DNA of 33,297 bases. Source: a virus. The notes below the pieces were generated by a model. It saw only the letters and a list, made by a program, of their open reading frames with translations. It had not been told where the DNA came from and searched no databases. The translations under genes were made by a program, and so were the position numbers. Where the stretch lies: positions 1 to 33,297 of the IMG/VR virus record IMGVR_UViG_3300032285_000933. One strand, given 5' to 3'. Below, piece after piece: positions 2,627 to 30,529 of the stretch (position 1 is its first letter; every line of letters begins with the position of its first letter).

Positions 2627-3442
2627 ATGTTAATTTTAGATGCAACAACCAAATCAATCGTGGTGGCCATGTCAGGCGCGGCCGCCACAACAAACCCATC
2701 TTTTGTTAGTGCTTGGTCAGACGATACCGGCACGGCGTTTACTGAGGGCGAAAACGATGGCGCATTGAATGGCACCACATCGGTTAGTTTGGTTGCCGCA
2801 CCGGCCGCATCCACAAGGCGTTTGATTAAGACTATTTACATATCAAACACGGATACGGCCGCGGTGACAATCACCGTTAGCATGAATAACAATTCAACAT
2901 TGCGCCAAATTGCCAAAGTAACGCTAAATGTTGGCGATACTTGGTCAACGGATGGCACAACGGATACATACGGCGCATTGAAACAAACATTAGGCACTAT
3001 TAATCTTTCAAGTGTCACCGGCACTTTGGCGGTGGCTAATGGTGGAACGGGCGTGACAACATCAACCGGCACTGGTAGCGTTGTTTTGGGCACCACGCCC
3101 ACACTAACAACACCGGTTGTTACCGGATACACGGAAACCGCACCGGCAATTGCCAATTCAAGCACCGCGGTTACTTTAAGCCTAGCAAGTGGCACGGTTT
3201 TAAGCTATACGCTAACCGGCAATTGCACATTCACAATGCCAACGGCCACAAGCGGCACATCATTTATTGTTAAGTTAATTCAAGATGGCACCGGATCACG
3301 CACGGCCACATTTACGGGCGTTAAGTGGCCGGGCGGCACGGCACCCACGATAACAACCACGGCATCAACGGGCGTTGATGTTTTAAGTTTTGTGTGTATC
3401 AATTCAATTTGGTATGGCACCGCGGCACAGGCGTTCGCATAA
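2627..3442 (+). CDS. Fibre/tail protein with ANGGTG motif
   Basis: 271 residues. The N-terminal half (to about residue 120) resembles a beta-sandwich attachment domain, with KTIYISNTDTAAVTITV and a WSTDGTT motif. The second half has TGTLAVANGGTGVTT, a linker motif very common in phage fibre shafts, and then a C-terminal domain with FTMPTATSGTSFIVKLIQDG. That last stretch resembles capping domains of aquatic phage fibres. It overlaps the next start by one base (TAATG). Probably a fibre adaptor or second fibre subunit; the exact position in the tail is inference. Confidence 0.8.
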   Translation: MLILDATTKSIVVAMSGAAATTNPSFVSAWSDDTGTAFTEGENDGALNGTTSVSLVAAPAASTRRLIKTIYISNTDTAAVTITVSMNNNSTLRQIAKVTLNVGDTWSTDGTTDTYGALKQTLGTINLSSVTGTLAVANGGTGVTTSTGTGSVVLGTTPTLTTPVVTGYTETAPAIANSSTAVTLSLASGTVLSYTLTGNCTFTMPTATSGTSFIVKLIQDGTGSRTATFTGVKWPGGTAPTITTTASTGVDVLSFVCINSIWYGTAAQAFA

Positions 3443-5133
3443 TGTTTGGCGCACTAGATTTTTTATTCACCGGCGTTTCTAAAGCTGGGGTTTCTGCTAC
3501 TTATTTGTTAGTGGCGGGTGGTGGTGCTGGTGGACTTGGGCAAGATTCAGGTGGTGGCGGTGCGGGTGGATATTTATCTAATACGTTAAGTGCCGCTTTA
3601 AATACCGCATACACAGTCACAGTTGGTGCGGGTGGTTCATCTTCTGCATATACAGGCTCTAATTCTGTTCTTTCATCTATCATTGCTTATGGTGGTGGTC
3701 AAGGTGGATCGTTAAATGGAAACGGAAACTCTGGTGGATCAGGTGGTGGAGGTGGTGGTGCAACAACCACAACATCTGGCGGTGCGGCAACCCCATCGGG
3801 CCAAGGAAATGCTGGTGGATCAGGAGCATCAACTTTCCCATCAGGCGGTGGTGGTGGCGCTGGGGCAGTAGGTGGATCAGCCGTTGCCGCACCAAAATCA
3901 GCAGGGTTGGGTGGTAATGGATTAGCCAATAGCATTACTGGCTCATCTGTTTACTACGCTGGTGGCGGCGGTGGCGGTGGTTATATTGGTGCTGGTGGTG
4001 GTTCAGTCTCTGGTGGATTGGGCGGTGGTGGAAACGGCACAACAGTATCAGGCACAACAGGAAGTAATGGAACTGCAAACACTGGTGGCGGTGGTGGTGC
4101 TAATGGCGACTCTACTGCTGGAGGTGCGTTGAGCAATGGTGGCTCTGGTGTAGTTATTATTTCTATACCCAAAGCATACATTGCTACATTTTCTGCTGGT
4201 GTAACTTATACAGGTGCAGTAGTAGGTGCTAATCGTGTTTATACAGTTACCGCAACGTCAACAACATCTGAAACAGTTACTTTTAGCATTGCATCAACAT
4301 TAAGTGCAATTTATTTATTAGTTGCCGGTGGCGGTGGTGGTGGAACAGATGCGGGTGGTGGCGGTGGCGCGGGTGGTGTTCTTACTAACACTGCATCAGT
4401 AAGTTATAACACCGCTTATTCTATTGTTGTTGGTGCTGGTGGGAATGGTAGTTTGTGGAGTCCGGCAACGCCATCTGTAAGTGGCAATTATTCCAAATTC
4501 ACAAGTAGCATTACCGCAACTGGTGGTGGTGCCGCCGGTGGTGGAAATACTGGGGGTGTTACTGGAACCGCCGCATCAACGGGTGGTAGCGGTGGCGGTG
4601 GAGCTGGTTATGCAACAATATTTTCCGGCGCAAGTGGAACAAGTGGACAAGGCAATTCAGGTGGAAGCGGAAATACTGATAACACAACGTATCGTGCCGG
4701 TGGCGGTGGCGGTGGTGCCGGTGGCAATGGTGTTTCTGTTACATCCAATCAAGGTGGAAATGGTGGGGTTGGTTTTTCTAGTTCAATAACTGGAACATCT
4801 GTTTATTATGCAGGCGGCGGTGGTGGTGATACATCATCCGGTTATACGCCCGGAACTGGTGGTAATGGCGGTGGCGGTGGTGGTAGCACCGGATCAACAA
4901 GTGGTGTTGCTGGAACGGCAAACACTGGTGGTGGTGGCGGTGGTGGTGGTGGCGCTCCTAGTGCCGCCGGCGGCAATGGCGGTTCAGGTGTAGCTATCAT
5001 TAAAGTGCCCGCCGGAACAGGTGTAACTTTTTCAGGTGGTGTAACATCTACAAGTAGTTCATCAGTCTCAGGTTACACAATTTACACAGTAACCGCAACA
5101 TCAACAACGTCAGAAACTGTGACATTCAGTTAA
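3442..5133 (+). CDS. Glycine-rich tail adhesin with duplicated module
   Basis: 563 residues from ATG 3442, which overlaps the previous TAA (TAATG). I preferred it to the upstream in-frame codon at 3394, which lies inside the preceding gene. Two modules of roughly 270 residues each begin YLLVAGGG and run through poly-Gly blocks, ITGxSVYYAGGGGG and GGSGV-I-I, ending TVTATSTTSETVTFS. Glycine-rich domains of this kind are found in phage fibre tips, for example the T4-type S16 gp38 adhesin with packed polyglycine helices. Glycine codons are mostly GGT here, whereas neighbouring genes prefer GGC, which suggests recent acquisition. A receptor-binding role is inferred. Confidence 0.8.
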   Translation: MFGALDFLFTGVSKAGVSATYLLVAGGGAGGLGQDSGGGGAGGYLSNTLSAALNTAYTVTVGAGGSSSAYTGSNSVLSSIIAYGGGQGGSLNGNGNSGGSGGGGGGATTTTSGGAATPSGQGNAGGSGASTFPSGGGGGAGAVGGSAVAAPKSAGLGGNGLANSITGSSVYYAGGGGGGGYIGAGGGSVSGGLGGGGNGTTVSGTTGSNGTANTGGGGGANGDSTAGGALSNGGSGVVIISIPKAYIATFSAGVTYTGAVVGANRVYTVTATSTTSETVTFSIASTLSAIYLLVAGGGGGGTDAGGGGGAGGVLTNTASVSYNTAYSIVVGAGGNGSLWSPATPSVSGNYSKFTSSITATGGGAAGGGNTGGVTGTAASTGGSGGGGAGYATIFSGASGTSGQGNSGGSGNTDNTTYRAGGGGGGAGGNGVSVTSNQGGNGGVGFSSSITGTSVYYAGGGGGDTSSGYTPGTGGNGGGGGGSTGSTSGVAGTANTGGGGGGGGGAPSAAGGNGGSGVAIIKVPAGTGVTFSGGVTSTSSSSVSGYTIYTVTATSTTSETVTFS

Positions 5134-5679: not shown

Positions 5680-6651
5680 ATGACCGCCCCAATCGACATT
5701 ATTTCATCGGCATTGAAAGATATTGGCGCATTGGCGGCCGGTGAAACACCCGATCCCGCGGCGGCACAAGATGCGTTTGTGATGTTGAATCGGATGATTG
5801 ATCAATGGTCAAACGAACAAATGATGGTTTACTATAAAACCGAAATTGTTTATCCGATCACACCGGGGCAAACGCAATACACCATTGGGCCGGGTGGGGA
5901 AATCGGTGCGGTTTTCACGGGATCAATTGTTAATAACGTTTTGACGGTTACCGCCATCACAAGCGGAGCTATTGCATTGGGGATGACACTTAGTGGCACC
6001 GGAATCACCGTTGGCACAAAAATCAATGGATTTGCAACCGGTGCGGGCGGAAATGTTAACGAATTAGGCACCTATTTGCTTAACATTAGCCAAAACGTGA
6101 CAAGCACAACAATCAACGCATACTATCAACGCCCATTAAGCATTAATTCCGCTTTTGTTAGGATCAACACCAATTCCAACGGCGTGCCAATTATCAATGG
6201 CGGTTTGGATTATCCGGTGGCCGTGTTGAATCTTGAAAACTACAACATGATTGGTTTGAAAACGCTAAACGGCCCTTGGCCAAAGGCGGTTTATTATCAA
6301 CCAAGCGATCCATTGGGAAACATCTTTGTGTGGCCAAATCCCGCGCAAGGTGAAATGCACTTGTTTTGCGACACGCTATTTAGTAGCTATGTAACAATCA
6401 ATGATCCGATCATATTGCCCCAAGGCTATGAAATGGCGTTGGAATGGTGTTTGGCGGAAAGATTAATGCCATCGTATGGCAAAGCAAGCGCAACGCAAAT
6501 TCAAATGGTTAATGCCTTTGCGGCACAAGGAAAATCAACGCTAAAAAGAACAAACATGAAACCGGTGCAAAATTCAACATATCCCGATGCGCTATTGGTA
6601 TCAAGGGCGCGTGATGCGGGTTGGATTTTGTCGGGCGGTTTCTTTAGATAA
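5680..6651 (+). CDS. P22 gp4-like head-to-tail adaptor (tail accessory protein)
   Basis: 323 residues. The N-terminal helices ([20 protein letters not shown], then [17 protein letters not shown]) and the following [16 protein letters not shown] are typical of the gp4/tail-accessory family, which caps the portal and stabilises packaged DNA in P22-like phages. The C-terminal half, with [32 protein letters not shown] and DAGWIL-GFFR, matches the same fold. Residues about 76-147 are an extra beta-module inserted between the two parts. It lies directly upstream of the gp10-like hub gene with a 9-bp gap. P22 gp4 is about 166 residues, so this version is enlarged. Confidence 0.8.
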
Positions 6652-6660
6652 GGACGCAAG

Positions 6661-8619
6661 ATGCCGGACTTTGGCTTTGTTGGCGCAAGTTACACCGCAC
6701 CATCTATTTATCAGGATGCGCAGGAGTGTATAAATTTCTTTCCCGAGGTTGATCCAACCAAGCAACCGGGGGATAGGGGTGTTGTTGCGCTATATCCAAC
6801 ACCGGGGCTAACGGCGCAATTGGTTTTGCCGGCGGGGGCGGAGGTGCGTGGATTGCGCACATTAAGCGGCGGATCGCAAGCCATAGCCGTTTGCGGTGCC
6901 TATGTGTATCTTTTATCTAGCAACCTAACGCCTACTATTGTGGGGATTTTAAACACCGCAAGCGGCCGTGTGGGGCTTGTGGATGATGGTTTGTATGCCT
7001 ACATTGTTGATGGCACATACCGCTATTCTTGGCGCATTTCAACGCCAACAACTGCCATCTTTACCGGATCAATAAGTGGCACAACACTAACGGTTTCAAA
7101 CATTCAAAGCGGCACAATTGCTATTGGCCAAGTATTGTTTGGCGTTGGTGTGGCGCAAGAAACGGTGATCACCGGAGGATCGGGGACATCGTGGACGGTG
7201 GATATATCGCAAACGGTGCCAAGCACGCTAATGAATTCATTGGTGACGGCAAGCATAACGGGCACGATAACCGCCGGATCAACAAACGCAACGCTATCAA
7301 CCACATCAACGGTGTATTTAGGCCAAACCATTCAAGGCACCGGCGTGCCAACTAATTCGGTTGTCAAGGCGATTGGAACACCAAGCGGTGGGATTAATTA
7401 CTACACTCTATCCACAAACACCACGGTTGCCGCGGGCACGCTATATGTGTTGGATTTCACGGTGTTGCCGGCATCCGATGGCGCATTTAGTGGCGCAACA
7501 ACGGTTGATATCATTGATAACTATTTTGTTTATTCACGCCCATCTAGCCAACAATTTGGCGCATCGGATGCACTTAGCCCAATATCGCAACAATTATCGT
7601 TTGCATCCAAAGATGGCGCACCGGATCAATTGGTGGCGTTGATTGTGGATCATCGTGAGGTTTATTTGTTGGGGGAAACATCGAGTGAGGTGTGGGTTGA
7701 TGCGGGCCTTTTCCCATTCCCTTTTCAACGCATACCGGGCACAAGCACGCAACACGGTATTGCGGCACAAAATAGCGTTTCACGAGTTGGCAATAGTTTT
7801 GCCTATGTAAGCCGAAATCTACGCGGCCAAGGCCAAATCATGCAAATGAATGGCTATATTCCACAACGGATTTCAACCCATGCGGTGGAAAACACATTGG
7901 TGAATCAATACATCAATGATGCGATTGCGTGGACTTACCAATTGGAAGGCCATGAGGTTTATGTTATTTCGTTCCCTACTATTAATATCACTTGGGCATA
8001 CGATTCCACAACGGGCCTTTGGTATAAGTGGCTTTATTGCACCACGGCCAACCAATACCAACGGCACCGCGGTAATTGTTCGTGTGTATTCCAAGGCATG
8101 GTGCTCGTGGGTGATTACGCCAACGGAAAGATATATGAGTTGGATAATACCAACTACACCGATGATGGAAATAACATTAGGCGGTTAAGACGCGCACCGC
8201 ATTTGGTGGCAGATTTGCAAAGGCAATATTTTGAGGAATTACAGATTCAATTCCAACCCGGCGTTGGTTTTACGGGTTTATCCGTTGCGCCCTACATTTA
8301 CATTGGCACACCTTACACGATTTATCCAACGGCCACGTTAACAATTCCGGCCACACAAACGGTGGTGATTGGCTTTGCAACGCTACAAAACCAAACCACA
8401 ACGTTGCCACAAGCCATGTTGCGTTGGTCTGATGATGGCGGTAGCACTTGGTCAAACGAACATTGGGTGACAATTGGCCAAACCGGCAAATATAAAAACC
8501 GCGCCATTTGGCGGCGATTAGGCCAAGCACGCGATCGGGTGTTTGAGGTGGTGGTGACCGATCCGGTGAAAGCCGTGATTGTTTCGGCTAATTTGAAAGC
8601 TAGCGGGGGCGAAAATTGA
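6661..8619 (+). CDS. P22 gp10-like packaged-DNA stabilisation / tail hub protein
   Basis: 652 residues. It starts [20 protein letters not shown] and has [18 protein letters not shown] and [17 protein letters not shown], characteristic of the gp10-type protein that forms the beta-propeller-like tail hub below gp4. Later blocks include [28 protein letters not shown]-like [12 protein letters not shown] and a [10 protein letters not shown] segment. P22 gp10 is about 472 residues; the excess is largely two inserted beta-modules at about 131-192 and 197-265. These resemble the insert in the neighbouring gp4-like protein. The stop overlaps the next TTG start (TTGA). Confidence 0.8.
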
Positions 8620-8860: not shown

Positions 8861-11059
8861 ATGACAACAACCGCAATATCAAACGCCGTTTCCGATGCCG
8901 CCGCGGGGTTGCCATCGGGGTGGACGCAATTTGTTTCCGATAATATTGGATCGGCCACGGGGCAACAAGCCATTGTGCAAGCCGCCGCCAATTTTGGCAT
9001 TACAAATCCATCGACAATTGCGAGTTTAGTAAATCAGGCCACGGGCATGAATGTGACCGCGGCACAAGTGCAATCGGTTGCGGCACCGGCACCAACACCC
9101 GCACCAACACCGGCACCAACACCGGCACCAACACCGGCACCGGCGGCCACAAGTGGCACACCATTGTCTAGCATTGCCGCACCACAATTTGTTGCATCGG
9201 CCGCACCCGGTGCGGTTGGCACAACTTATGGCCAAGCATCCGGCGATATGATCACCGCCGCATCACAAGCCAATCCGGCCCTTGCACAAGCATTAACAAG
9301 CGGAAATGCCGCGGTTAATTACAACGCCGATACAGGCGCATACAACCTAATTGACAAAACTACTGGCGCACCCATAGCCGGTAATTATCAAGTGCAAGTA
9401 GGGCCAAACGGCACCGGTATCAACATTCCTAGCGGCAATGGAATGATTCAAGTAACCGCCCAAACGGATCAAAGCGGCACCATTGCACCGGTTACCGCCG
9501 CCAATGTGCAAAACGTTGGTTTGAATCGTGGTGCGGGTGGATTTGCCGGTGGCCCCGATGCCTTTATGGCCGCGGCCGGCCCCGCTATTTCGGTTGTATT
9601 CCCCGAGGTTGCGCCATACATTGCCGCCTACAATTCAGCATCCGCCGCCAATAAAGGCCAATATGGGGTGGCACTTATTAATGCTTTGGGTGCCGCCGGT
9701 ATTTACGCATCACAAAATCCCGATTCACAAATTGGCCAAATGGTGAATGGCGCTATTGATGCCGTCAAAAGCTCTTTGCCTCAATCCGTTCAAGACGCAT
9801 TAGGTTCGTCTACAACGTCATCAACACAAGGCACTACTGGCACTACACAAATAGGCGATACAACTGGATTGGGTAATACCAATTATTCCGTTGCGCCAAC
9901 AGGATCAACAGGCACAGGTTTAAATGTCCAACAAGGCACAGGCACAAATCTATTTGATACAAGCGGCGTTAATCCAAATACAGGATTAACCAATGGATTG
10001 GGATTGCAAACATCAGGTTCTGCTAATTTAGCAAATATGGGTGGTGGCCAAGGGCTAACTGTATCAACTAATATTCCGGGTGGAACAAACACATTAACCA
10101 ATCAACCACTAGGAACATCTTTAAGCAATTTGCCGGGTGGCACAACATCAACATCCGGCGTTATTGGTGCAACAGGCACAACACCGGTAGGCACAGGTGG
10201 GTTACCAATAAACACCGCAACAGGTGCAACATTAGGAACTGCATTAAACAATGTAAACACAGGCGTTACTAATCCAAGCAATCTTATTACTAATTCAACC
10301 GGTAAAGTGGCCGGCACAACCGCAGGAACTGCCGCAACAGGATTAACAACGGCACAAGCCGCCGCATTAGGAATTCCAGCGGCCGCCGCGGTTATAGGAA
10401 CAGGATTAACAAACAAAGCAATTTCAAATGCGGCTAGCACACAAGCCGCGGCCGGCGCTAATGCACAAGATTTAATTCATGGGTTATATACTGCGCAAAG
10501 TCAAATCCAAGCACCTTATCAACGGACTGGTGTAAATGCTACAAACACGCTAGGATCATTGGGATCAGGCACTTACGATACGTTAAATCCGGATGGCACC
10601 GTTGCAAGCACCGGCACAGGATCGGGTTATTTAACCAATCAATTTAACAACCAAGATTTAAACGCCCAACTAGCGCCTAATTACGCATTTCAATTACAAC
10701 AAGGCCAAGGCCAAGCACAAAACGCGGCCAATGTTGGCGGTGGGCTATTGAGCGGAAACACATTACAAGGATTGAATCAATACACGCAAAACTACGCGCA
10801 AGGCGCATATCAAAATGCGTTTACAAATTACCAAACCCAACGCAATAACATTTACAACACGTTGGCGGGCCAAGCCGGAATTGGTCAAACTGCTAATCAA
10901 CAATTAAGCCAATTAGGCGGATCATTGGCAAACACTTATGGAAATCTTACAACAGGATTGGCGGCATCACAGGCTGGCGCTACAACCGCACAAGCCGTTA
11001 ACAATTCAAATTTACTAAGTAGTTTGGCCCAAACGGCAACAATTGCCGCATTAGCATAA
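8861..11059 (+). CDS. Ejection protein, P22 gp7-like, with Pro/Ala/Thr linker
   Basis: 732 low-complexity residues dominated by Ala, Gly, Thr, Asn and Gln. Residues about 75-96 are a PAPT repeat (four-residue periodicity). The C-terminal ~220 residues are the informative part: IQAPYQRTGVNATNTLG, PNYAFQLQQGQGQAQNAANV, GGGLLSGNTLQ and NAFTNYQTQRNNIYNTLAG. This pattern is typical of phage DNA-ejection (internal virion) proteins. It is the first of three adjacent large genes in the position of P22 7-20-16. It probably leaves the capsid before DNA and helps form the transfer channel. Family recognition rests on pattern only. Confidence 0.7.
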   Translation: MTTTAISNAVSDAAAGLPSGWTQFVSDNIGSATGQQAIVQAAANFGITNPSTIASLVNQATGMNVTAAQVQSVAAPAPTPAPTPAPTPAPTPAPAATSGTPLSSIAAPQFVASAAPGAVGTTYGQASGDMITAASQANPALAQALTSGNAAVNYNADTGAYNLIDKTTGAPIAGNYQVQVGPNGTGINIPSGNGMIQVTAQTDQSGTIAPVTAANVQNVGLNRGAGGFAGGPDAFMAAAGPAISVVFPEVAPYIAAYNSASAANKGQYGVALINALGAAGIYASQNPDSQIGQMVNGAIDAVKSSLPQSVQDALGSSTTSSTQGTTGTTQIGDTTGLGNTNYSVAPTGSTGTGLNVQQGTGTNLFDTSGVNPNTGLTNGLGLQTSGSANLANMGGGQGLTVSTNIPGGTNTLTNQPLGTSLSNLPGGTTSTSGVIGATGTTPVGTGGLPINTATGATLGTALNNVNTGVTNPSNLITNSTGKVAGTTAGTAATGLTTAQAAALGIPAAAAVIGTGLTNKAISNAASTQAAAGANAQDLIHGLYTAQSQIQAPYQRTGVNATNTLGSLGSGTYDTLNPDGTVASTGTGSGYLTNQFNNQDLNAQLAPNYAFQLQQGQGQAQNAANVGGGLLSGNTLQGLNQYTQNYAQGAYQNAFTNYQTQRNNIYNTLAGQAGIGQTANQQLSQLGGSLANTYGNLTTGLAASQAGATTAQAVNNSNLLSSLAQTATIAALA
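9083..9147 (+). repeat. 12-bp tandem repeat encoding a PAPT linker
   Basis: Units close to ccggcaccaaca are repeated about five times inside the ejection-protein gene, encoding alternating Pro-Ala-Pro-Thr. The repeat is a multiple of three, so gain or loss of a unit changes only linker length. Confidence 0.85.
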
Positions 11060-27181: not shown

Positions 27182-28427
27182 TATTGAATTCCCGCTAAAA
27201 CTACAATGCCTATTCCAATCGGCGCGTTATAAAGTGCTTTGGGGAGGGCGAGGCGGGGCTAAATCGTGGGGTATTGCCCGCGCCCTATTGATCATTGGTG
27301 CCAACAAGGCCACACGCGTGTTATGCGCACGGGAATTCCAAACATCCATTAGGGATTCCGTTCACAAGCTACTTTGCGATCAAATCGGCGCAATGGGCCT
27401 AACGGATTTCTATGAAATCACCGATCGAACAATCCGCGGCAAGAATGGATCGGAATTTAATTTTGTTGGCCTAAAAAATAATGTGGCCAATGTGAAAAGC
27501 TATGAGGGCGTGGATATTTGTTGGGTCGAGGAGGCGCAATCGGTTAGCGGCCGATCATGGGCCACATTGATCCCAACGATACGAAAAGAACAATCCGAAA
27601 TATGGGTTTCATTCAATCCGGAATTGGAAAGTGATGAAACTTACCAACGATTCGTGTTGCACCCGCCGGAAAATGCTATTGTGCAAAAGATCAATTGGTC
27701 TGATAACCCTTGGTTTCCGGATGTATTGCGACAAGAAAAGGATGCGCTAAAGAATCGTGATCCGGAGGCTTACAACATGGTTTGGGAGGGGATTTGCCGC
27801 CAAACCGTGGATGGTGCCATCTTTGCCAAGGAAATCCAATTGGCGGATTTGGAGGAAAGAATTGGCAAGGTGCCATACGATGCAACCAAACCCGTTCACG
27901 TTGTCTTTGACCTTGGATGGGCGGATGCCACGGCATTGTGGTTTGTGCAATTCATTGGAATGGAAACGCGCCTAATCCGCTATTTTGAAACATCACAGGA
28001 AACAATTAGCGCCATATTGGCCAAAATGCAAACGTTTGGCTATGTGTTTGACACACTATGGTTGCCACATGATGCGGAAAATAAGACTTTGGCGGCCGCG
28101 GGGCGATCAATTGAGGAAATAGTGCGGGCGGCGGGGTATAAGACGCGGATTATTCCACGCACGCCAATTGTGGATTCAATCAACGCGGCACGCACAATTT
28201 TTAGAAATTGTTGGTTTGATAGAATAAATTGCGATGATGGGCTACAATGCCTTAGACACTATCGTTATGAGGTTGATCCGGATACAAAACAGTTTAGCCG
28301 CACGCCCTTGCATGATCAGTATTCGCACGGTGCGGATGCGTTTAGAATGTTGGGGTTGATGATCCAAGAGCCGAAGAAATTGGTAGTGAAAAAACCCGTT
28401 TATGAACCCGCAAATTGGATGGGATGA
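27171..28427 (+). CDS. terL: Terminase large subunit, PBSX/Terminase_3-like
   Basis: 418 residues. The ATPase domain has the Walker A-type loop LWGGRGGAKSWG (residues 23-34) and Walker B DICWVEEAQ. An adenine-binding/coupling region follows, with WVSFNPE. The RNaseH-like nuclease part has VVFDLGWADATALW, WLPHDAENKTL and SHGADAFRMLG, whose acidic residues would hold two metals. The enzyme translocates DNA into the procapsid through the portal and cuts it. The stop lies 2 bp before the preferred portal start. Confidence 0.93.
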   Translation: MEANIEFPLKLQCLFQSARYKVLWGGRGGAKSWGIARALLIIGANKATRVLCAREFQTSIRDSVHKLLCDQIGAMGLTDFYEITDRTIRGKNGSEFNFVGLKNNVANVKSYEGVDICWVEEAQSVSGRSWATLIPTIRKEQSEIWVSFNPELESDETYQRFVLHPPENAIVQKINWSDNPWFPDVLRQEKDALKNRDPEAYNMVWEGICRQTVDGAIFAKEIQLADLEERIGKVPYDATKPVHVVFDLGWADATALWFVQFIGMETRLIRYFETSQETISAILAKMQTFGYVFDTLWLPHDAENKTLAAAGRSIEEIVRAAGYKTRIIPRTPIVDSINAARTIFRNCWFDRINCDDGLQCLRHYRYEVDPDTKQFSRTPLHDQYSHGADAFRMLGLMIQEPKKLVVKKPVYEPANWMG

Positions 28428-28429
28428 AT

Positions 28430-30529
28430 ATGGCCGATAACCAAACAGATTTCGATCCACGGATTGATGAGGCAAAGAAATTTTTAAAGCTAGCCAACGA
28501 TGCGGATACGAATAATCGCACCGAGGCGTTGGAGGATTTGAAATTTGCCGCCGGTGATCAATGGCCGGTTGAAATCCAAAATAGCCGATCATTGGAGGCG
28601 CGGCCATGCCTAACAATCAACAAAATTGACGCGTATGTGCGCCAAGTAACCAACCAACAAAGACAACAACGCCCGCGGATCAAAGTCCATGGCATGAATA
28701 GTTCCTCCGATGAAAAGATTGCGGATATCCTAACGGGCATTTGCCGCCACATTGAAACGCAAAGCGATGCCGATCACGCATACGACAACGCGTTTAATTA
28801 CGCCGTGCGCATGGGTTTTGGCTATTGGCGCATAGAAACCGATTATGTGCGGGAAAATTCCTTTGATCAGGAAATCTACATTAAGCCAATACACAACCCG
28901 TTTACCGTTTATTTTGATCCGAATAGCACATTGCCGGATGGATCGGATGCGGAAAAGTGCCTAATTACGCAAGTTGTAAGTAAAGAGGTATTCCGCAAGA
29001 TGTATCCCGGCCACGATGATGGTGCCGGCTTTACACAACGCGGCACCGGCGATAGCAACGCGGAATGGGTGATGCGCGAGGATATCCGGATTGCGGAATT
29101 TTGGTATACGGAGCGCAAGGCAGATAAGCTATGCCTATTAAGCAATGGCGAAAAAGCATTTCGATCCGATTTGCCAGATCAGGCGGAAATGTTGGCCCGC
29201 GGCTTGGTGGTGATCGAGGAAAGGCCATCATTCAAACGCGAGGTTAAGCAAATCATTTGCACGGGCATGGAAGTGCTTGAAGAAGGCAAATGGGCAAGCA
29301 AATACATTCCGATTATTCCGGTTTACGGTGAGGAATTCGTTGTTGAAAACAAGCGCAAGAAATACGGCTTAGTGCGGATGGCCAAAGACCCGCAAAGGAT
29401 GTATAACTTTTGGAAAACCGCGCTAACCGAATCCGTTGCCCTAGCGCCTAAAGCCAAGTGGTTGATTGCCGAGGGACAAGATGAGGGGCACGAAAACGAA
29501 TGGGCACAGGCTAACATCAAATCCATGCCGGTGTTGCGTTATAAGCAAAAGGATATTGAGGGCGTGATGGCCCCAACACCCACGCGGATTCAACCGGAGG
29601 CACCGCCCGCGGGCATTATGGCCGCCGCGGATGGAATCAATAGCGATATGCAAGCGGTTTTGGGCATCTTTGATCCAAATCAAATGCCAAGCGGAAACAT
29701 AAGCGGCAAGGCACTAAATGGCCAACAACAACAAATTGATCTAAGTAATTACCATTATTACGACAATCTTACGCGATCCATTAAACACACCGCCCGCATT
29801 ATTCTTGATTTAATCCCCAAAATCTACGATAACGCCCGCATTATGCGAATCATTGGCGATGATGGAAAGCCGGAATTGGTGGAAATTAACAAGCGTGGCC
29901 AAGACGAACAGGGCGTTGAAAAGATACTAAACGATGTCACCGTGGGCGAATACGATGTTGTGATGGATACGGGCCCCGGTTACAACAGTAAACGCATTGA
30001 GGCGGTGCAATCCATGATGCCATTGCTGAGTGCCGATCCTAACCTAATGAATGTTGCCGGTGATTTGATCTTTAGAAACATGGATTTCCCCGGTGCGGAT
30101 GTCATTGCGGATCGTTTGGCCGCTAGCAACCCATTGGCGCAAATTGATGATAAATCACCCGTGCCGCCACAAGTGCAAATGCAATTGAAACAAAGCCAAC
30201 AGACAATTCAGCAATTACAACAACAGTTGCAAGGAATGCAATTGATGCTGAAAAACCGTGCGGATGTGGAACAAATGAAACAAGATGCGGAAACCAAGCG
30301 CACCTTGATCAAAGAAACCAACAAAGCCCACGAAATTGAATTGCAAGATCAACAAAGGCACATTGACATGAAAATGCGCACGGATACACAGGCGCACGAC
30401 ACGATTGTTAAGACACAAACGCAATTAGAGGTGGAGCAAATTAAAGCCCAATTGGCGGTGTATTTAAGCCATTTGGATCGAATTAGCGAACGCGAGGCAA
30501 AAGCCGAGGCGGTTGAAAGGGCAATTTGA
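28430..30529 (+). CDS. Portal protein, P22 gp1-like
   Basis: 699 residues from ATG 28430, preferred because ggatggg lies 6 bp upstream; ATG 28424 and TTG 28415 are also in frame. The family core is seen in VRQVTNQQRQQRPRIKVHG, FNYAVRMGFGYWRIETDY and IHNPFTVYFDPNS, with later MPSGNISGKALNGQQQQID. P22 portal is 725 residues, so the length fits. Residues beyond about 580 form a long Gln/Lys-rich helix, comparable to the P22 portal barrel. Twelve copies form the DNA gate and platform for the gp4-like adaptor. Confidence 0.9.
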   Translation: MADNQTDFDPRIDEAKKFLKLANDADTNNRTEALEDLKFAAGDQWPVEIQNSRSLEARPCLTINKIDAYVRQVTNQQRQQRPRIKVHGMNSSSDEKIADILTGICRHIETQSDADHAYDNAFNYAVRMGFGYWRIETDYVRENSFDQEIYIKPIHNPFTVYFDPNSTLPDGSDAEKCLITQVVSKEVFRKMYPGHDDGAGFTQRGTGDSNAEWVMREDIRIAEFWYTERKADKLCLLSNGEKAFRSDLPDQAEMLARGLVVIEERPSFKREVKQIICTGMEVLEEGKWASKYIPIIPVYGEEFVVENKRKKYGLVRMAKDPQRMYNFWKTALTESVALAPKAKWLIAEGQDEGHENEWAQANIKSMPVLRYKQKDIEGVMAPTPTRIQPEAPPAGIMAAADGINSDMQAVLGIFDPNQMPSGNISGKALNGQQQQIDLSNYHYYDNLTRSIKHTARIILDLIPKIYDNARIMRIIGDDGKPELVEINKRGQDEQGVEKILNDVTVGEYDVVMDTGPGYNSKRIEAVQSMMPLLSADPNLMNVAGDLIFRNMDFPGADVIADRLAASNPLAQIDDKSPVPPQVQMQLKQSQQTIQQLQQQLQGMQLMLKNRADVEQMKQDAETKRTLIKETNKAHEIELQDQQRHIDMKMRTDTQAHDTIVKTQTQLEVEQIKAQLAVYLSHLDRISEREAKAEAVERAI

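Follow-up and report, generated by a model that had tools for sequence, protein, structure and literature searches.

One way to approach this locus is to ask why two neighbouring structural genes of one phage should carry what looks like the same piece of protein. The window, that is, the whole stretch of DNA analysed (33,297 bases), is the virus record of an uncultivated freshwater phage with a podovirus-type gene set, in which a portal gene (PF16510) lies at 28415-30529 and a DNA-ejection protein gene at 8861-11059. The two genes at issue are both on the plus strand: a gp4-like head-to-tail adaptor of 323 aa (5680..6651) and a gp10-like head-closure or nozzle protein of 652 aa (6661..8619). 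The adaptor holds one segment, m1 (residues 76-149, 5905..6126, plus strand); the gp10-like protein holds two in tandem, m2 (residues 131-193, 7051..7239) and its diverged partner m3 (residues 194-268, 7240..7464), also on the plus strand. A sequence-only reading had put all three within a few residues of these limits and had taken them for a shared module inserted into contacting hub proteins. All three segments are probably better explained by a portable all-beta module of about 65-75 residues, which phages insert into the beta-turns of virion proteins.

The segments, of 63-75 residues each, are copies of one homologous module. For m1 and m2 this is evident from the single sequences: they share 42% identity over 71 columns (tblastn E about 1e-8), and their BLOSUM62 score of 115 exceeds that of all 2000 shuffles (37 ± 6.5; z 12). 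Single-sequence comparison of m3 is weak, with z 5.4 to m1 and z 3.2 to m2, and in the latter case 13 of 2000 shuffles equal or exceed the score. Profiles of each segment were built from positional relatives and compared with shuffles: the m3 profile picks out m1 (45.5 bits) and m2 (36.6 bits), with shuffles reaching 14.7 at most; m3 is found by the m2 profile in the full-length gp10-like protein at 15.6 bits (best shuffle 12.6); and hhalign profile-profile probabilities among the copies are 99.1-99.6%. The possibility that m3 is a chance low-complexity resemblance was ruled out by the profile scores against shuffles. The presence of the same module in both proteins, as first proposed, thus stands. 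The sequence motif by which it was described fits m1 and m2; m3 of the window is a diverged copy recognisable as a family member only via its relatives, and the motif is clear in m3 of relatives such as L065 and L052, the former having it in full in both gp10 copies.

Away from the segments, both proteins match known families. The gp10-like protein fits the P22 gp10-like, head closure Hc3 class in sequence and in fold: it matches phrog_578 (head closure Hc3) at 1.3e-95 over residues 4-651; hmmsearch profile matches to PDB entries include Pam1 (7eeq, 4.7e-18), Pan3 (9vyg, 2.2e-13) and P22 gp10 (0.002); and Foldseek matches its model to P22 gp10 (8eap_D, E 3e-12) and also to Sf6, Pan3 and Pam1. 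The P22-type fold assigned to both proteins in the sequence-only reading is thus supported for this one, but not for the gp4-like protein. The latter scores 35.9 bits with PF24175 SU10_adaptor (curated cut-off 27), the only Pfam family above its cut-off, with no P22 gp4 family match listed; it matches phrog_12985 at 1.2e-39; phrog_637 (Ad3) matches at 1.2e-5 over residues 5-52 only; and Foldseek pairs its model with the tail adaptors of cyanophage A4, phage GP4 and SU10. These matches place it closer to the adaptors of SU10/T7 type than to P22 gp4. The beta 'fibre dock' of the T7 adaptor is absent in P22 (PMC6702177).

Relatives without the module show what the two proteins look like when the sites are empty. 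Rhodoferax phage P26218 and MW202557 lack it altogether, with adaptors of 234 aa and gp10 proteins of 474-475 aa; module-less phages overall have adaptors of 234 aa and gp10 proteins of 474-476 aa. The module site of gp10 spans 181 residues in the window and 44-46 in 92 unique module-less proteins; in Acetobacter phage phiAX1, a divergent module-less gp10, it spans 53. In Xanthomonas phage PBR31 the adaptor carries a diverged module at this position, and gp10 carries none. Given such compact empty sites, and cores that belong with known families, m1, m2 and m3 are insertions outside the standard fold, as had been proposed. The gp10-like protein has a second insertion site, unrelated to the module, in its C-terminal domain (residues ~540-581, 8278..8403, plus strand); among module-less relatives the aligned region there ranges from 17 to 102 residues, and the sequences are dissimilar.

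In the AlphaFold2 model the adaptor consists of helices at 4-14 and 26-45, strands from 52 to 232 with a short helix at 185-190, and helices at 250-266 and 271-292. This is the SU10/T7-type layout, in which a beta-domain separates the second and third members of a helix bundle, and m1 lies within that domain. The blocks of m1 mostly have pLDDT values of 87-94, with one block at 67; those of m2 and m3 have 87-94. The gp10 core is modelled poorly in places, with large parts below 60 and a mean pLDDT of 69.4. In the models of m1 and m2, long first and last strand runs enclose shorter ones; m3 has the same strand order, its runs being broken into shorter strands. Alignment suggests that each long run is a hairpin. 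From the predicted secondary structure and from where the inserts fall, we infer that the first and last strands pair, so that insertion at a beta-turn would spare the host fold. A search by sequence found no solved structure of the module. Matches of the module to latrotoxin (E 0.09-0.11) span 29 residues and were taken as chance. The adaptor model also matches 8eci_1, from phage Bridgette (75 columns, 25% identity, E 0.034); that match may cover the module.

In this lineage m1 would have entered the adaptor beta-domain between the second and third helices, most simply once, and at the place where T7-type adaptors have their fibre dock; m2 and m3 would have entered the nozzle protein together, at a turn in its N-terminal half.

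The module proves not to be a feature of two contacting hub proteins, since it also occurs in unrelated proteins of head, neck, sheath, baseplate and fibres. An IMG/VR scan with one module gave 419 confirmed stretches, 80 of which were examined together with further loci. These yielded 418 unique module-carrying ORFs in 33 host-protein clusters that are not BLAST-linked outside the module; because the clustering relied on BLAST links, remote homologues may have ended up in separate clusters. Some singletons lack annotation, and we infer that every one of the 33 is a virion protein. Carriers include a tail sheath protein (DUF3383), a neck terminator (PF23961), cement proteins (PF22758/PF23982), a T4 gp8-like baseplate wedge, a collar fibre and a laminin-G fibre; in contigs of cellular genomes, they include a head protease, a minor head protein and a lambda gpD-like decoration protein. 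The last was seen in a Rhodocyclales MAG (L345:3848-4705, plus strand; phrog_49), where the module takes up residues 51-120. In BFVD the adaptor model gives partial matches, among them proteins of the HK97 capsid type and the P22 gp10 type. The module also matches two PHROGs, both tail fibre: phrog_21413 (about residues 393-477 of 595) and phrog_38233 (550-630 of 896). The module is therefore common to more than the adaptor and gp10. Pfam and NCBIfam hold no family or model for it, and a text search of open papers found no mention of the motif ISGTTLTV. A tblastn search of phage and plasmid records with typical modules gave no matches, which does not imply absence, as the low-complexity filter probably masks the queries. 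The best reading of this distribution is a promiscuous virion insertion module, a new family analogous to the Ig-like domains of phages.

The module's most distinctive feature is that it is inserted into itself. Nine unique adaptors have a second module that, to judge from the sequence, lies inside the last beta-turn of m1: the first copy continues as far as its fifth strand, a whole second copy follows, and then come the first copy's last strand and a conserved RPL/KPL. The nested second copies are 65-85% identical to modules of unrelated proteins, as against 29-47% to the copy that hosts them. In L184, the nested copy and the module of a baseplate wedge have 71-74% DNA identity, with flanks at chance level. 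The earlier proposal of module shuffling thus holds among virion proteins at large, where the 33 clusters and the nesting attest it, and is better shown by the nesting than by the copies in the two hub proteins. A more ambitious reading, put forward here tentatively, makes the module a dedicated insertable unit that can go into beta-turns of almost any virion protein and of its own copies; tail hubs might then grow by layered insertion, and the module would be a selected, reusable surface part that a phage community shares among proteins of the head, neck, sheath, baseplate and fibres. Other inserts were seen inside m3: insert A in 13 unique gp10 proteins (L134, L148 etc.), with a match to phrog_9703 ('head decoration', 5.9e-8), and insert B, of a third kind, in six (L153, L161 etc.).

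Of current traffic between the two hub genes there is no sign. The tree of the module, drawn from 70 columns and poorly resolved, nevertheless separates the gp4, first gp10 and last gp10 copies into three nearly clean groups, with 7 label changes against 82.5 in shuffled labels. Identity between m1 and m2 is 0.479 within one phage, about equal to the 0.470 found between phages. Recent gp4-gp10 exchange within one phage was rejected on these two grounds. Among 235 unique loci with both genes, 145 have modules in both, 69 in gp4 only, 21 in neither and none in gp10 only. On the tree of the gp10 core the module-less proteins fill one side of a supported branch; on gp10's own tree, lack of the module is the probable ancestral state. 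Most simply, the adaptor gained its module long ago, gp10 acquired the pair afterwards, and vertical descent followed. Three loci (L001, L002 and L156) have m1 and no gp10 modules; their proteins fall outside the module-bearing group on the gp10 tree and inside it on the gp4 tree, for which loss or gene exchange is possible.

What such a part might do has to be judged from indirect evidence. The copies are kept by purifying selection: dN/dS is 0.113 for m1, 0.084 for m2 and 0.111 for m3, against 0.070-0.074 for the cores, values that are rough, as dS is near saturation. Their composition is rich in Ser, Thr and Gly, with 2-3% charged residues, 0-0.7% Trp and 5-7% aromatics. By analogy with the Ig-like domains, which in phages are likewise small all-beta units found in fibre, baseplate, tail and head proteins of unrelated phages, and for which a role in surface adhesion is presumed (PMC7602432; Fraser et al. 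2006, as cited in PMC10684548), a generic exposed-surface role seems most likely. The copies would stand outside the hub, the least certain step of this scheme although surface exposure is plausible on the same analogy, and would offer a surface for weak multivalent contacts, perhaps with fibres of the same phage or with material on the cell surface, as is thought for the Ig-like domains. Unlike those domains, the module has no match to a Pfam Ig family in 14 modules scanned (the best Ig/Big profile was Big_6, E 1.2, in one member); it also sits in beta-turns of the adaptor and nozzle, and it is self-nested. As to topology, its strands are predicted with high confidence, and the best 50 Foldseek matches of the adaptor model include no evident Ig-domain structure.

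The main specific rival to a generic surface role is fibre docking: m1 and the m2-m3 pair would face each other and form or enlarge a socket for the N-termini of tail fibres. In T7 the fibre lies between docks on the adaptor gp11 and the nozzle gp12, both of them small jelly-roll barrels (PMC6702177), and the fibres of P-SCSP1u are held in the same way; the two systems have in common small beta-domains on both adaptor and nozzle, the second and third adaptor helices do flank the beta-domain that holds m1, and gp10 modules were never seen without one in gp4. The last point loses force, however, because the nested distribution follows from a few gains on the tree and so is not independent evidence. 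In the 69 unique loci noted above m1 occurs without m2-m3, and so works alone. Homology or a fold match to the T7 docks was not seen, and among the Foldseek matches none to these docks stood out. Unlike a T7 dock, m1 is an addition inside the beta-domain of the adaptor, and m2-m3 belong to the N-terminal half of their protein. The module also occurs in sheath, cement and neck proteins, which are not known fibre dockers. Docking is on balance a doubtful alternative.

Glycan binding, the function suggested in the sequence-only reading, would make the copies carbohydrate-binding domains by which the phage attaches to polysaccharide of the host or the environment. Promiscuous phage Ig-like domains have been tied to carbohydrate adhesion in some phages (PMC7602432), and several carriers of the module are fibres, one of them with laminin-G/ConA-like domains. 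The 14 modules scanned matched no carbohydrate-binding family or CBM, though; so little Trp and so few aromatics of any kind do not furnish an aromatic platform, charged residues are also scarce, and the modules evolve nearly as slowly as the cores, unlike a receptor-binding surface in an arms race. The proposal is thus not borne out, and we think it improbable. Less probable still is that the module is a near-neutral passenger, a small self-folding insert that beta-turns tolerate and that accumulates without much function. Inserts do fall at turns and nest in one another, and many phages live without them; yet the low dN/dS (0.08-0.11), and the fact that every sampled member of its clade has kept m1, point to a selected function, and the genomes are small.

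Domain mosaicism, in which fragments are common to otherwise unrelated phage proteins, those of the neck included, has been described by Smug et al. 2023 (PMC10684548) and is among the phenomena closest to this one; the module is not named in that paper's outline or keyword passages. The two PHROGs that contain the module are whole-protein families, and do not represent it as a unit. An uncurated module family would explain part of the unannotated length of virion proteins in environmental phages, and could mislead whole-protein clustering by linking fibres with adaptors. Self-nesting at beta-turns is a concrete record of virion-protein growth by insertion.

Other repeats were seen in the window. 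Within the ejection-protein ORF, a 12-base tandem repeat of about five copies (9081-9144) encodes a linker of APTPAP type. Upstream of the adaptor gene, an ORF of 579 aa (3394-5133, plus strand) is glycine-rich and adhesin-like and contains long repeats (YLLVAGGG...; VYTVTATSTTSETVTFS). It overlaps the end of an ORF at 2627-3442, which has a fibre-like repeat, and it stops exactly where an earlier copy of the repeat runs on.
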